From NCBI GenBank assembly GCA_902812415.1, contig CADDZJ010000020.1, positions 1-45,615 of the forward strand: DNA of 45,615 nt, given 5' to 3'. The notes beneath the pieces are model-generated. The model did no database searches and was not told the DNA's origin. It saw only the letters and a program-made list of their open reading frames with translations. Origin of the DNA: Acidobacteriota bacterium (GTDB lineage Bacteria > Acidobacteriota > Terriglobia > UBA7540). This document shows, piece by piece, positions 2,174 through 44,624 of the stretch; the first letter of the stretch is position 1; each line of letters starts with the position of its first letter. The position numbers and the translations under genes were made by a program.

Positions 2174-2506
2174 AAATCTTAAACCTCTCGGAGTGATGAG
2201 AACTGGGGAGTTGCAACGGAAAGCCTGAACTCCAGCCCGTAAGTTTTAAGTATAGCAGATTGGCTGGCCGGTTGCTGAAAACTCAAACAGCCTGGCATTG
2301 TTTCGAGGGTCTCGGGACCGTTTTGAGGCAAAAGACCTCGTAAGAAAAACGGTTGAAGATAATAGAAAAAAGAGTCAAATGGCTATGGTTTAGGGCTTGC
2401 AACAAATCGCAGTCTCCATTAACCTAACCCCACCCCTTTCGGGGTGCAGCGAAGTGGCGTACCAGGGTTTCGCGGAATTCAATTGCCACGGCAGGAGAAA
2501 ACCATC
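2174..2506. other. Divergent intergenic region rpmB / AhpD-like gene
   Basis: About 330 bp separating divergent genes. It contains the rpmB extended -10 and, at its right end, the ribosome site of the AhpD-like gene (AGGAG at 2493-2497). A cytosine-rich stretch (CCTAACCCCACCCCTTTCGG) near 2423-2442 has no clear role. I see no RNA gene here. Confidence 0.4.
2249..2257 (-). promoter_or_regulatory. Extended -10 element for rpmB
   Basis: On the minus strand this reads TGCTATACT, a TGn-extended -10 (TATACT). No good -35 is seen at the right spacing, which extended -10 promoters can tolerate. It lies about 75 bp upstream of the rpmB start. Confidence 0.4.
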
Positions 2507-3136
2507 ATGGAACCCATGTTCTTACAGCAAGTGGAGAGGGCGGTGGGCGGCGGTGGATATTCGGAATTGATTCAACTGCTGCGGGGGAATGGATCGGCTA
2601 TCCCGCAAATCCTTCATCTTTTTGCGTTTAAGCCTCAGGCCACCGACTACCTGGCTCGATTCACGCACGAGGTCATGCGCGGCCCCTCGCCTTTAAGCCC
2701 CGCTTTGCGCGAGTTGATCGCGGCCTTTACCTCAACTGAGAATCAGTGCCCTTTCTGAATAGGCTCGCACGCTGCGGTCGCAGCGGAACTCTTTGGGGAC
2801 AAAGATCTGGTGGAATCGGCGCTGCGCGATTACCGCAATTCGCCTTTATCCCAGGCGGAAAAGGCGTTATTGGCCTTCATTCAGAAGGTCAATCGTCATT
2901 CCAACACCATCGGTGCGGAAGACGTTGAGCAGGTGAGGCAGGCAGGCTGGTCTGACGAGGCGCTTTATGACGCCATCACCGTGTGCGCTCTGTTTAACTT
3001 CTACAATCGATGGGTCGATGCCACCGGCGTTCATGGCATGCCTGCGGAAGCCTATGCCATGCAGGCTAAGAGACTTGCCTATCAAGGTTACGGCGCAGTT
3101 AAGTCAGTAAAGGCGGCAGGCGCAACTGAAGCGTAG
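2507..3136 (+). CDS. AhpD-like / carboxymuconolactone decarboxylase family selenoprotein (in-frame TGA read as Sec)
   Basis: Read through one TGA (2756-2758), this is a 209-residue protein of the AhpD-like alkylhydroperoxidase/CMD family. Residues 1-83 end RELIAAFTSTENQCPF. The TGA is codon 84, and the same frame continues IGSHAAVAAELFGDKDLVES to 3136. Family members carry a CxxC(x)GSHAA redox motif, so the TGA replaces the resolving or peroxidatic Cys and gives C81-P-F-U84. The two halves are in one frame with no other stop, and a fdhF-like hairpin follows the TGA. The ATG at 2507 has AGGAG upstream. Likely a cytosolic thiol/selenol peroxidase or redox protein acting on peroxides or reactive carbonyls; the substrate is unknown. 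Known families: CxxU AhpD-like selenoproteins have been reported from metagenomic surveys. Alternative: a nonsense-mutated pseudogene, which the intact downstream frame argues against. Confidence 0.85.
2759..2796 (+). promoter_or_regulatory. Bacterial SECIS element inside the AhpD-like gene
   Basis: Immediately after the TGA. The stem CGCTGC (2770-2775) pairs with GCAGCG (2780-2785) and is capped by the loop GGUC (2776-2779). The first loop G is the 18th base after the TGA. In E. coli fdhF the same GGUC occurs within the AGGUCU loop starting at base 19 after UGA. Bacterial SelB binds such an apical loop with an exposed G and U. The spacing and loop identity match what the family requires. No bulged U equivalent is obvious in the short stem. 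Confidence 0.75.
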
Positions 3137-21868: not shown

Positions 21869-21991
21869 TTAAGATCGCATTTTAAGCTTCATGGCGGCAC
21901 TCACTGAGCAGTGGGAAGCACGGAGTAGACTGCCCCGATGCTACCATCAAAGCGCCGCTTGCGGACTTCATTTCAAGGAGGTGATTTCAAC

Positions 21992-23383
21992 ATGTTGCTC
22001 CGACCCGATCCTACGTTCTATCCCTCAGCGCGTCTTGCGATGCAAGCGCCCCCGGAAACCCTGGCTTACGTGGCCACGTTGAATGCGAACGGCAACGGTC
22101 GCCCGGATGCGCTGGCTGTCGTCGATGTTGATCCCAAGTCTCCAACCTACAGCTCGTTGGTGGGGCGAGTGGAGATGCCGAAAGCCGGCGATGAGCTGCA
22201 TCACTTCGGGTGGAACGCCTGCAGTTCGGCTCTGTGTCCTTATGCGCCTCATCCTCATCTGGAGCGCCGATATCTGATTGTCCCGGGCCTCCGCTCCTCC
22301 CGCATTCACGTGATTGATACGAAGCCTAATCCACGCAAGCCGCAGATTGTGAAGGTGATTGAGCCGGAAGAAGTGGCGGCGCGAGCCGGTTACTCGCGGC
22401 CTCATACGATCCACTGCGGGCCGGATGGCATTTACGTGAGCGCCCTGGGCTCGCCGGAAGGCGATGGGCCGGGCGGCATATTTATTCTGGACCATTACAC
22501 GTTTGATGTGCTGGGTCGCTGGGAAGTGGATCGAGGTCCACAATTCCTGTCTTATGATTTCTGGTGGCACCTGGGTCATGACACGATGCTCACCAGCGAA
22601 TGGGGCACGCCCAATATGGTGGAAGATGGCATCAAGCCTGAACTCCTGTTTGAGGGGAAATATGGCCGTCATGTCCACGTCTGGGACCTGCGCCGGCGGC
22701 GCCAGTTGCAGGCGCTGGATGCAGGCGCAGAGCAGCAGATGGTGCTGGAGCTTCGCCCGGCGCACGATCCGTCGAAGCCCTATGGCTTTGTGGGAGTCGT
22801 CGTCTCTCTGAAGGACCTTTCCGCCTCCGTTTGGCTCTGGCATCGTGAAAATGGCAAGTGGGGGCTGAAGAAGGTTATCGAAATCCCTGCCGAGCCTGCT
22901 GAAGTGGATGCTCTGCCGCCGCTCTTGAAAGGCTTTAAGGCTGTCCCGCCGCTCATTACGGACATCAACCTCTCGCTCGATGATCGCTGGCTCTACGTTT
23001 CATGCTGGGCTACCGGCGAGTTGCGGCAATATGACGTTTCTGATCCGTTTAATCCGAAGCTCACGGGCTCGGTGAGATTGGGAGGAATTGCCAGCCGCGC
23101 AGCGCATCCGCGAAATCCGCAGCGGCAGTTGAACGGCGGCCCGCAGATGGTGGAAGTCAGCCGCGATGGGCGTCGCATTTATTTTACGAACTCGCTCTAT
23201 CGCGCCTGGGATGAGCAGTTTTATCCCGAGGGCATTCGGAGTTGGATGGCGAAGGCGATCGCATCGCCGGAAGGCGGATTGACGATCGATCCGGGATTTT
23301 TCCTTGAGTTTGATGACGTGCGCGCCCATCAGGTCCATCTGGAGGGTGGCGATTCCTCCTCGGATTCCTACTGCTATTCATGA
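21992..23383 (+). CDS. SELENBP1 / methanethiol oxidase family protein
   Basis: 463 residues, close to the ~460-470 of human SELENBP1 and bacterial methanethiol oxidase (MtoX). It shows family landmarks throughout: DELHHFGWNACSSALC (Cys about 77, the conserved CSS segment), PHTIHCGPDGIYVSALG, WWHLGHDTMLTSEWGTPNM, HVHVWDLR and the C-terminal HQVHLEGGDSSSDSY. The His-rich loops fit the copper centre proposed for bacterial MTO. Family reaction: CH3SH + O2 + H2O to formaldehyde, H2S and H2O2. A strong ribosome site (AAGGAGGTG) fixes the ATG at 21992; the longer open frame upstream lacks one. No clear signal peptide. Its stop overlaps the ATG of the next gene (ATGA), so the two are coupled. Confidence 0.9.
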   Translation: MLLRPDPTFYPSARLAMQAPPETLAYVATLNANGNGRPDALAVVDVDPKSPTYSSLVGRVEMPKAGDELHHFGWNACSSALCPYAPHPHLERRYLIVPGLRSSRIHVIDTKPNPRKPQIVKVIEPEEVAARAGYSRPHTIHCGPDGIYVSALGSPEGDGPGGIFILDHYTFDVLGRWEVDRGPQFLSYDFWWHLGHDTMLTSEWGTPNMVEDGIKPELLFEGKYGRHVHVWDLRRRRQLQALDAGAEQQMVLELRPAHDPSKPYGFVGVVVSLKDLSASVWLWHRENGKWGLKKVIEIPAEPAEVDALPPLLKGFKAVPPLITDINLSLDDRWLYVSCWATGELRQYDVSDPFNPKLTGSVRLGGIASRAAHPRNPQRQLNGGPQMVEVSRDGRRIYFTNSLYRAWDEQFYPEGIRSWMAKAIASPEGGLTIDPGFFLEFDDVRAHQVHLEGGDSSSDSYCYS

Positions 23384-24063
23384 GCGCCGGGCAGGCTAAT
23401 TGGCCCTGGATCGCGCTCCTTGCGCTCGGCGCCTACCACGGCGTGAACCCGGGAATGGGCTGGCTTTTTGCCGTGGCGCTGGGGTTGCAGGAGAAGCGCC
23501 GCCGGGCCGTGCTGCAAGCCATCCCTCCGCTCGTCGTGGGACACCTGATTTCCGTGGGCGTGATTGTCGCCCTGGTCGTAGCGCTCGAAGCTGCCGTTCC
23601 TCTTTCCCTCCTGCGTGTTGTCACGGCTATTGTTCTGATTGTCTTTGGCCTGTCTCGCCTCGTTCGCGCGCGGCATCCGCGCTGGGTGGGCATGCAGGTC
23701 GGTTTTCGCGATCTCACGCTCTGGTCTTTCCTGATGGCCTCCGGTCATGGCGCGGGCTTGATGCTGGTTCCCATTATCCTTGCATGGCCCCGCACTGCTT
23801 CTATTGCGCACGCAACATCCGGCGGCATGGAGCATTCCATGCATCTCCCCGCTGGCATTCACGGCGCAGCTTTGGGAAAGCCGACGTTATGGTTGCTGGC
23901 GGTAGGAGTTCATACCTTCGCCTATCTTGCAGTTATGGCGGTGGTGGCATTCCTGGTTTACGCAAAATTCGGCGTTGCAATCCTTCGAAGCGCATGGCTT
24001 AACCTGGATCTGATCTGGGCGATTGTACTCATCACCACCGGTGTGCTGACATTGTTTTTATAA
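23380..24063 (+). CDS. Polytopic membrane protein coupled to SELENBP1-like gene
   Basis: 227 residues with six or so hydrophobic helices. The first helix carries the motif GAYHGVNPGMGW. Later helices carry SGHGAGLML and a His-rich stretch (SGGMEHSMHLPAGIHG), which look like metal-ligand positions. The general architecture (small helical protein with H/G/P motif in helix 1) recalls UreH/HupE-like metal transport proteins, but I cannot assign it. The ATG overlaps the SELENBP1-like stop by four bases, so both are made from one mRNA. An attractive inference is metal (copper) delivery or transport linked to the upstream enzyme. It ends 34 bp from the convergent mnmE. Confidence 0.7.
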   Translation: MSAGQANWPWIALLALGAYHGVNPGMGWLFAVALGLQEKRRRAVLQAIPPLVVGHLISVGVIVALVVALEAAVPLSLLRVVTAIVLIVFGLSRLVRARHPRWVGMQVGFRDLTLWSFLMASGHGAGLMLVPIILAWPRTASIAHATSGGMEHSMHLPAGIHGAALGKPTLWLLAVGVHTFAYLAVMAVVAFLVYAKFGVAILRSAWLNLDLIWAIVLITTGVLTLFL

Positions 24064-41277: not shown

Positions 41278-43734
41278 TTACTTTCTCTCTCCACCGCCCA
41301 GCGTGAGGCGGACACCGGCGCGAACAGTGAAAGGAAGGGCTGGATAGCCGAACGCGGCCTGGTAATGTTCATCCAGGATGTTTCCCATGCTCGTGTAAAG
41401 CGTGACGTGGCGATGAAGGTCATACCATCCGTTGAAGTCCACCAATTGATATCCTGCCAGCAGGTTCCGGTTCGGCAACAGCATCGTATTGCCGAAAAAT
41501 CCGTCAGTGAGGAACGTGCTGTCGTCTGATCTGCCGGTGAAGTAGCCGTTAAAACTCACTCCAAATTTTCGTTTGGAATAAGTGACGACAAAGCTGGCTG
41601 ATTGAGGCGGGCGGCGAAACGGCCTGTCGCCGACGAGGGGAGCATAGGCTCCGATGGGAATATTGGGAAAGGCCGGGTTAAAAGCAGGGAAGAGAGCGCT
41701 GCTGGCGAAGGATTGGGTGACCACGGCGTCAAGATAAGTATATTCCGTTCGCAGCATCAGATTGCGAGTGAGGCTGACTTCAAGCTCGGCCTCTGCGCCC
41801 CGGCTGCGATAGGAATCGGAATTGATATAAGCGCCGAACGGGACTTCAGCCACGACCGGCGCAGGAACGCCGAGTTCAGGCAAAGCGCTTTGGGGAACGA
41901 AATCAATGAGGTCGTAGAAGCGTTGGTGGAAGAATGTGACGCTCAGAAGCGCTCGTTCATTCCAAAGCCCCTGCTCCACGCCGATGTCGAAACTTCGGCT
42001 GCGCTCGGCCCCGATGGGAGAAATGCCGTAGCGGCGAATCAGATCCGGCCCGTTTGAAAGCGCCGAAATCAAACTGTAGAGCGACGAGCCCTGGTCCAGG
42101 AGGCTTGGTTCCTTAATTCCAGTGCCAAAGTTAAACCGCAGCTTCGTGAGCCCGAAAGCGGAAGCTGAGGATGGACGTCGCAAGTAATAAGCAAGGGAAA
42201 CGCGGGGAGTCACAGCAAATCCGAAGACAGCATTATCCTCAAACCCCACGCCCGCCGTCGCAAATGCGCGTTGCCACAGGTTTCCGCGGCCTTCGAGAAA
42301 GTAATCGTAATTATTCCGCCGGGTGACGGATTTGGGCGAGCCGGAAGATTGTGAGAAACCGTCTTCATGGATATAGTTGAACCCGCCTGTCACGCCGAGA
42401 TCGGGCCGGAAGAAATAATCGGTCTGGCCTCCGACTGATTCGACCGTTGTCTTGGAATTGAAGATCGCCGGATAGGAGCCGCCGAAATCGAGAATCGCCT
42501 GGCCGGTGGCGCAATAATCGTTGGCTCCACAGATGGAGACTTCATCGCCCAGGTAGTTAGCCCCGAAGCCGAAGGGATTGAAAGGGATGCCGGTGGGCGC
42601 CGGGTTATTCAGAAAATAGTGGATGTGGGTTGAGGTGAGCCGCAGCGTGTTATGCCAGCGGGAAGTGGTCTGATTCTGCGCCGTGAGTCCTAGGTAGGTA
42701 TCCTGTTGTCTCTGGAACGAGTCATCCGGCATGCCGTAGAAGTCGAGCGGCCCTGGCAGCCCCAGACCGGTCGCATCGTGATGGATGGTCAAGCGAACTT
42801 CGGTGTTCTGAGCGGGGTTCCAGCCGAAATTTCCAGCGTAGGTTCCATTGTGGAAGGAACTGTTGGGGATGCTGTTTTGCGTGTCAAAGCGCATGAAATC
42901 GGAGTAGTAATCGAACTGCCGGAATACCCCGCCAATTGAAACTTCCTGGCGAAGCGTGTGGAAGTTGCCGCCATCAGCGGAGTATGTGAATTCAGGAGTG
43001 GGCGTGCTCCCGCGGCGGGTTGTAATATTGATGGCGCTCGAGAGCGCATCGCTGCCATAAAGGATGCTGTCGGGCCCGCGGAACACTTCAACGTGATCCA
43101 CGCCGCTGGTTGCCAGATTTGCAAAATCGAATTGCCCGCCGATATCGTTGGCCGGAATTCCGTCAATCAAGACCTTGTTGAAGTCTGAATTTCCACCGCG
43201 CACAAATACGGAGGTGATGCCGCCGCGCTGCCCTTCCTGGACCACCTCGACGCCTGGGACGAGCCGCAAGGCGTCCAGCACATCCAGCTTGTTGAGCGCC
43301 TCAAGCTGGTCGCGGCTTATAACGCTCACGGAGGCGCCCACCTGTGATTGAAGCATCGGCTGCCCTGTGGCTGAAACTACGATTTGCTGGCGCAAGGGGC
43401 CAATCTGGAGACGCAATTCCAATTGAATTGCGCCGCCGGCCTTCAAAAATACAGCCGCGCTCGCTGCAGGCGTGAACCCAGGCGCTTCAGCTTCCACGCG
43501 GTAACGCCCTGTAGGGAGAGAAGAGATTAGAAAGCGGCCTTCCTGATTCGTTCGTGTTTGGCGGATGGGAGAGCCATTCTGAATCAAGTTAACTTTGGCG
43601 TTTGGGACGGGAGCTCCCAGCGGGTCCGTGACTTTGCCTTGAAGAGCGGCTTGGGAAATGCCGAGCGATGCGAAGCCCAGTAGGAATGAGATGACGAACC
43701 ACGCTCGGGTGTGACGAAAAATATGATGAAGCAT
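41278..43734 (-). CDS. BtuB-like TonB-dependent receptor for cobalamin-type ligand
   Basis: 818 residues from the ATG at 43734, where AAGGAGGACACG gives a strong ribosome site; the open frame reaches further into the riboswitch and is not coding there. Signal peptide (WFVISFLLGFASLGISQA, about 10-28), carboxypeptidase-regulatory-like domain, then a plug with RLVPGVEVVQEGQRGGITSVFVRGG ... VEVFRGPDSILYGSDALSSAINI, closely like BtuB/vitamin B12 receptors. The barrel ends in VRAGVRLTLGGGERK. The transcript leader contains two cobalamin riboswitches, so corrinoid uptake is the best assignment. No btuCDF or cob genes are in the window. Confidence 0.9.
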   Translation of the reverse strand: MLHHIFRHTRAWFVISFLLGFASLGISQAALQGKVTDPLGAPVPNAKVNLIQNGSPIRQTRTNQEGRFLISSLPTGRYRVEAEAPGFTPAASAAVFLKAGGAIQLELRLQIGPLRQQIVVSATGQPMLQSQVGASVSVISRDQLEALNKLDVLDALRLVPGVEVVQEGQRGGITSVFVRGGNSDFNKVLIDGIPANDIGGQFDFANLATSGVDHVEVFRGPDSILYGSDALSSAINITTRRGSTPTPEFTYSADGGNFHTLRQEVSIGGVFRQFDYYSDFMRFDTQNSIPNSSFHNGTYAGNFGWNPAQNTEVRLTIHHDATGLGLPGPLDFYGMPDDSFQRQQDTYLGLTAQNQTTSRWHNTLRLTSTHIHYFLNNPAPTGIPFNPFGFGANYLGDEVSICGANDYCATGQAILDFGGSYPAIFNSKTTVESVGGQTDYFFRPDLGVTGGFNYIHEDGFSQSSGSPKSVTRRNNYDYFLEGRGNLWQRAFATAGVGFEDNAVFGFAVTPRVSLAYYLRRPSSASAFGLTKLRFNFGTGIKEPSLLDQGSSLYSLISALSNGPDLIRRYGISPIGAERSRSFDIGVEQGLWNERALLSVTFFHQRFYDLIDFVPQSALPELGVPAPVVAEVPFGAYINSDSYRSRGAEAELEVSLTRNLMLRTEYTYLDAVVTQSFASSALFPAFNPAFPNIPIGAYAPLVGDRPFRRPPQSASFVVTYSKRKFGVSFNGYFTGRSDDSTFLTDGFFGNTMLLPNRNLLAGYQLVDFNGWYDLHRHVTLYTSMGNILDEHYQAAFGYPALPFTVRAGVRLTLGGGERK

Positions 43735-43779
43735 CGTGTCCTCCTTCGCCCTCGGAAGAGCGGACTGAAATGGATTTGT

Positions 43780-43927
43780 GGCTGGACCGGTCTCCTGACT
43801 TTGCGACTCTTTTTCGGAGCCTGCGCCTTCCCACCCTTGAGGGGCAGTGGCGTGTTGCAGGCTTTGCTGGTCGCATACAGTTGCGGGGCAGTGGCGGATT
43901 CTCACCGCGCTTCCCGTTCATCCAGCC
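43780..43927 (-). ncRNA. Cobalamin riboswitch (proximal copy)
   Basis: On the minus strand: P1 5' strand GGCTGGA (43921-43927), GGGAAGCGCGGTGAGAATCC, then the B12-box-like GCCACTGCCCCGCAACTGT (plus-strand 43880-43898 region), a GGGAAGGCGCAGG segment, and the conserved AGTCAGGAGACCGG (plus 43787-43800), closing with TCCAGCC (43780-43786), which pairs with the P1 start. It ends about 45 bases before the BtuB-like ATG, so it likely controls translation or termination of that gene. Confidence 0.9.
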
Positions 43928-44032
43928 AGATTGATTTTCAAGTGCAATTCCCAGCGGTCGAAATTATTCCAACCGTCGGTTCCCTGGCGTGCGGCGCATA
44001 TCGTCGTCGCGTGTCAAGGGATGTCGTCAATC

Positions 44033-44203: not shown

Positions 44204-44220
44204 ATCTGAGCTGTCGCAGG

Positions 44221-44380
44221 CGTCTGGCCGGTCTCCTGACTTGCGCCTCGTCGCGTCCGGGCTGCCTTCCCAGAATCTCAAAGTCCCAGTGGCTTGCTAG
44301 CCCTGCGCTCCGCGCTCACAGTGGCGGGGCCGTGCCGGATTTTCACCGGTCTTCCCAATTGCAACGGCGTATGCCAGACG
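44221..44380 (-). ncRNA. Cobalamin riboswitch (distal copy)
   Basis: On the minus strand: P1 CGTCTGGC (44373-44380), GGGAAGACCGGTGAAAATCC, the conserved GGCACGGCCCCGCCACTG, a GCCACTGGG stretch, TGGGAAGGC and AGTCAGGAGACCGGCC, closing with GCCAGACG (44221-44228). P1 is a perfect 8-bp complement. All parts of a cobalamin riboswitch are recognisable. A promoter ends a few bases upstream. Confidence 0.92.
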
Positions 44381-44624
44381 AAATCTAATTGTGTATCTCT
44401 CTTTAGCGCAATTGTCAATGGTTGCGGCGAATCGTCAAAAAGCAAAGAAGATAGGGAAATTAGGGATGACTGCGATCCTGAGCGATAGCGAGGATCCCCG
44501 CATTTAGTTTTCAGTGCAATATCGGATGCTTCGCTGCGTTCAGAGCGGCATATTCTATATATTTCTAATAATATCCATAAAATGAATTATTGATGGTATT
44601 GATTACTTTTGATTAAATATCCAT
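44381..44624. other. Divergent spacer between B12 leader and XRE gene
   Basis: Contains the B12 leader promoter, a related copy of the dispersed repeat (about 44465-44505, GATCCTGAGCGATAGCGAGGA form), and an AT-rich stretch (44550-44620) that presumably holds the promoter of the XRE gene. No further gene. Confidence 0.45.
44390..44418 (-). promoter_or_regulatory. Promoter driving the tandem riboswitch leader
   Basis: On the minus strand: TTGACA (44413-44418), exactly 17 bp, TACACA (44390-44395). The predicted start falls within a few bases of the distal riboswitch P1 at 44380, an arrangement that fits a riboswitch leader. Confidence 0.6.

Follow-up and report, generated by a model that had tools for sequence, protein, structure and literature searches.

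Bacterial AhpD-like proteins with a CxxU redox motif, in which U is selenocysteine (Sec), were first reported in 2005 from the Sargasso Sea (PMC1088965), were split in 2008 into AhpD-like 1 (COG2128) and AhpD-like 2 (pfam02627) with the CxxU motif (PMC2398784), and are entered in a 2026 review as 'AhpD-like protein, TIGR01926, CxxU' (PMC13188914). The first-pass annotation of the DNA analysed here, a 45,615-nucleotide stretch from a soil bacterium of the Acidobacteriota (the window), had placed a hidden selenoprotein of this kind at 2507-3136 and called the class known but little-studied. The class is indeed catalogued (PMC2398784, PMC13188914), and "little-studied" may hold for its biochemistry; the literature yielded no assay of any member of the subfamily to which the window gene belongs. 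The window protein resembles the published class, to which accession MCB9421940.1 belongs, in its fold family, in Sec at the second position of CxxC, in having Cys-containing relatives, and in a bacterial SECIS element right after the UGA. By the features considered here, its subfamily differs in being mostly acidobacterial, in an N-terminus of its own type (MEPMFLxxVE) and in a FNFYNRWVDATGVH block that is conserved. Two NCBIfam models of AhpD-related (seleno)proteins, NF041238 (AhpD_rel_CFYUT) and NF053654 (GroundWater_YciW), show domain-level similarity to the window protein, but as its scores lie far under the cut-offs (44.6 bits against 175 and 25 bits against 310, respectively), it is not a member of either. 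The class has thus been known since 2005, and the window gene adds to it a member from a largely acidobacterial subfamily that lacks a curated selenoprotein model of its own.

The gene runs on the plus strand from an ATG at 2507 to a TAG at 3134-3136 (2507..3136), comprising 209 codons through one UGA, and an AGGAG Shine-Dalgarno-like site, recognized by sequence, is located 9 nt 5′ of the ATG (2493..2497, plus strand). The read-through frame contains a single in-frame TGA, at codon 84 (2756..2758), in the motif C-P-F-U-I-G-S-H. The single open frame of 209 residues with a good start, as described in the first-pass annotation, was therefore recovered. Its expectation that automatic annotation would split the gene was also borne out, as standard ORF calling breaks it into 2444-2758 (104 aa) and 2810-3136 (108 aa). 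Reading the locus as a single gene mends an annotation that automatic methods would leave in two pieces or mark as defective.

The read-through protein scored 103.5 bits against TIGR01926 (cut-off 81.8) and 42.7 bits against Pfam CMD (cut-off 23), and its PDB relatives by sequence were 2pfx, 3c1l, 2oyo, 6k40 and 2prr. The AlphaFold2 model (pLDDT 92.6) adopts the all-helical AhpD fold, with 3c1l, 2pfx and 6k40 as the top Foldseek matches. The active-site layout of TIGR01926 is present on the plus strand: Cys81 (2747..2749) and the UGA codon (2756..2758) form CxxU, the upstream Glu is Glu69 (2711..2713), and the downstream His is His88 (2768..2770), the invariant active-site His of the AhpD motif. 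The gene product is a TIGR01926 'peroxidase-related' enzyme of the AhpD/CMD superfamily. The Cys-type proteins 2pfx, 3c1l, 6k40 and 2oyo share the fold (TM-score 0.72-0.75 by query length) and the active-site layout, but are 26-29% identical in sequence and carry Cys where the window protein has Sec84. The corresponding residues of Mycobacterium tuberculosis AhpD are Glu118, Cys130, Cys133 and His137, with Glu118 acting as the proton relay and Cys133 as the peroxidatic residue. By this numbering, the spacing of Glu (C-12) and His (C+7) in M. tuberculosis AhpD (1knc, 1gu9) equals that of the window protein, which has Sec in place of the peroxidatic Cys133; the Foldseek match to 1knc and 1gu9 was weak (E about 0.2-0.9), which points to a different arrangement of the fold.

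Searching 60 related genomes and scanning genome contigs yielded relatives that are 45-63% identical to the window gene. Most are acidobacterial; L091 is the one member labelled Planctomycetota, and L063 the one labelled Actinomycetota. In the codon alignment of 56 sequences, including the window gene, column 84 was TGA in 35, TGC in 17 and TGT in four, with no other codon, so that the TGA takes the place of the second Cys in the AhpD motif, as had been proposed (35 TGA and 21 Cys codons). In a 30-sequence protein alignment (A1), Glu69, Cys/Sec84 and His88 were invariant, column 84 holding Cys or Sec without exception, and Cys81 was nearly so, being replaced by Thr in L055 and L062. These two sequences (L055:1738-2325 and L062:3588-4175), both from one metagenome bin, read T-x-x-C, having lost the first Cys and kept the second; this pattern would fit a one-Cys enzyme and suggests that column 84 is the essential one. 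On a maximum-likelihood tree made without column 84, at least five changes between Sec and Cys were required.

The relatives also bear on whether the stop at codon 84 might come from a pseudogene or from a sequencing or assembly error, a reading for which the breaking of the gene in two by generic ORF calling could be cited. The same TGA occurs in 35 of the 56 sequences, from many independent assemblies, and no frameshift accompanies it. Scattered stops in related strains, which would have spoken for decay, were absent: apart from the TGA at this one column in the Sec relatives, the in-frame stops among the 56 aligned sequences were limited to a terminal TAG in two sequences (L040, L057) and, in the Cys-type sequence L082, a TGA in codon 3, which lies at the edge of the match. 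The TAG of L040 (genome G008) was considered as an amber-encoded Sec and rejected, as it ends the protein naturally at codon 201 and this sequence has TGC in the Sec column. Ten unsaturated pairs among the Sec relatives gave dN/dS values of 0.04-0.22 before the TGA and 0.05-0.30 after it; the low values after the TGA imply that this part is under selection as protein, and the codon comparisons indicate that purifying selection acts on both halves. A pseudogene or an error is accordingly of negligible probability.

A hairpin, CGCUGC-GGUC-GCAGCG (2770..2785, plus strand), was identified by folding and published criteria right after the UGA; the first-pass annotation had not looked for one, and the hairpin is evidence beyond it. 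The stem is a perfect 6 bp, the 4-nt GGUC loop starts with G, the UGA-to-loop spacing is 17 nt, and the energy is -9.3 kcal/mol for the hairpin alone and -10.9 kcal/mol with flanks. The published rule for bacterial SECIS elements asks for a loop of 3-9 nt, a stem of 4-16 bp, G in the first two loop positions, a distance from the UGA of 16-37 nt and an MFE of -7.5 or lower (PMC13188914), and the window hairpin lies within all of these limits. It has no Rfam match. As the H-A-A-V-A-A codons and the hairpin overlap, the latter was compared with random synonymous codons drawn at the codon usage of the family. Sec sequences had a mean energy of -11.4 against -7.8 in this null (sd of the group mean 0.44), and all six pairs formed in 74% of them against 18% in the null, whereas the Cys sequences showed no excess (-6.0 against -6.3, sd 0.52). 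The excess in Sec but not in Cys sequences indicates that the hairpin is kept where the UGA is present and not where Cys is encoded. A compensatory change was found within the family (CGCUGC/GCAGCG and CGCCGC/GCGGCG), and as some Sec relatives (L026, L030) have the hairpin in a shifted register, counts at a fixed register understate the match. With the SECIS in its Sec versions and none in its Cys versions, the subfamily offers a clear-cut natural comparison for working out the advantage of Sec over Cys. It also puts on record selenium-dependent AhpD-like enzymes across a whole lineage of Acidobacteriota that are for the most part uncultured.

The genome of the window encodes the full Sec machinery for which the first-pass annotation had recommended a search: SelA (586.5 bits, contig C53), SelB (372.5 bits, contig C87), SelD (376.9 bits; L020, G000:C37:3685-4617) and a tRNA-Sec with anticodon TCA (72.6 bits, contig C105), all on contigs other than that of the window in a fragmented assembly of 261 contigs. 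SelD itself carries an in-frame UGA at the usual catalytic Sec position (A-A-G-U-A-A-K). A second tRNA-Sec match (C1, 47.7 bits) was rejected, as it is a tRNA-Ser with anticodon TGA. Every one of the 35 Sec-form genomes had SelA or SelB: SelA passed the cut-off in 31, and SelB was present in the remaining four. Among 19 Cys-only genomes, nine had SelA, and the ten with neither SelA nor SelB over the cut-offs were mostly related Acidobacteriaceae; the SelB search covered 19 of the relatives. The association of 'SelA or SelB' with the Sec form gave a Fisher p of 4e-6, a value computed over lineages that are not phylogenetically independent. Four Sec-form genomes with no selA over the cut-off (G001, G068, G071 and G078) were examined as counter-examples and discarded, as SelB passes the cut-off in each; the lack of selA probably reflects the incompleteness of these assemblies.

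A near-cognate tRNA (for Trp, Arg or Cys) might also read through a stop codon of this kind, or the codon might be recoded locally without selenium. Plain read-through is, however, opposed by the alternation of the TGA column with Cys only, by the full Sec machinery in the genome, by the hairpin kept in Sec relatives only and by the use of UGA as a normal stop elsewhere in the window, and is very improbable. Global reassignment of UGA was likewise rejected, because purD, MnmE, SBP56 and YidC in the window end in TGA, and there is thus no global code change. Taken together, the conserved TGA/Cys column, the SECIS hairpin, the Sec machinery and the purifying selection uphold the hidden AhpD-like selenoprotein with CxxU, and on these comparisons the UGA at 2756-2758 almost certainly encodes selenocysteine. 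An AhpD/CMD-fold oxidoreductase with Cys81-x-x-Sec84, Glu69 and His88, Sec being inserted at the UGA, is the best explanation of the locus, and we regard it as very likely.

In the decoding that we propose, SelB and Sec-tRNA(UCA), together with the hairpin right after the codon, would lead the ribosome to insert Sec at 2756-2758. Sec84 would stand where AhpD has its peroxidatic Cys (Cys133 in M. tuberculosis), Cys81 would be the counterpart of the resolving Cys130, and Glu69 and His88 those of the proton relay. The selenolate of Sec84 may attack a hydroperoxide or a similar electrophile to give a selenenic acid, which would form a selenenylsulfide with Cys81; a thiol or dihydrolipoyl donor would then return the enzyme to its reduced state. 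The peroxidase step of this cycle is probable by analogy with AhpD. Of the peroxide or thiol redox enzyme claimed in the first-pass annotation, the AhpD-like family assignment stands, and the enzymatic role is a probable one, drawn from fold and family.

A selenoprotein of this fold might instead have a main job that is not the reduction of peroxides; examples would be reductive dehalogenation, which the AhpD-fold debrominase Bmp8 carries out, disulfide/thiol exchange, and the handling of a carbon substrate that is electrophilic. Bmp8 (6ohj, 6ohi) was among the relatives from the fold search, but is distant (18-20% identity, E about 7e-4 to 2e-3) and far behind the TIGR01926 structures. In other genomes, an MFS transporter gene lies near the AhpD-like gene in 12 loci, directly adjoining it on the same strand in 11 (L033, L035, L037, L038, L039, L064, L071, L075, L076, L078 and L082), and an ORF for a carboxypeptidase-regulatory, Oar/TonB-type outer-membrane protein recurs near it in 15. 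These neighbours hint at uptake or catabolism over stress defence, but neither adjoins the window copy, and a main role other than peroxide reduction is on balance unlikely. The narrower proposal that the Cys-Sec pair serves reductive dehalogenation or the reduction of an imported electrophilic compound, not peroxide reduction, would agree with the genes for transporters and outer-membrane receptors that adjoin many relatives, and is more doubtful still. For the window protein, a peroxidase of the AhpD type is the reading we prefer.

After the window gene come genes for a multihaem cytochrome/TPR protein and an ASPIC/UnbV protein, an arrangement common to few relatives. The cytochrome/TPR gene was considered as a conserved operon partner and rejected, as it adjoins the AhpD-like gene in the window and in L028 only, and no redox-partner gene reliably adjoins the AhpD-like gene in the neighbourhoods of the window and its relatives. 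The neighbouring genes do not settle the function of the enzyme.

Elsewhere in the window, a gene of the SBP56 selenium-binding protein/methanethiol oxidase type (655 bits) is located at 21938-23383, and the ORF immediately after it (23380-24063) has no family match. Two tandem cobalamin riboswitches on the minus strand (44209-44393 and 43768-43940) lie upstream of a TonB B12-receptor-like gene (41278-43905, minus strand); as the second riboswitch overlaps the listed GTG start of this ORF, translation probably begins further in than listed.

In the same genome, one TGA at the second Cys of CxxC is also found in each of three other AhpD-like genes, namely L094 (G000:C16, NRCHYU-IESH), L095 (G000:C2, NHCDYU-LNSH) and L096 (G000:C19, NGCEYU-SRAH), with a strong hairpin directly 3′ of the TGA in each. 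The genome thus totals at least four AhpD-like selenoproteins, including the window gene, in addition to the Sec-type SelD.
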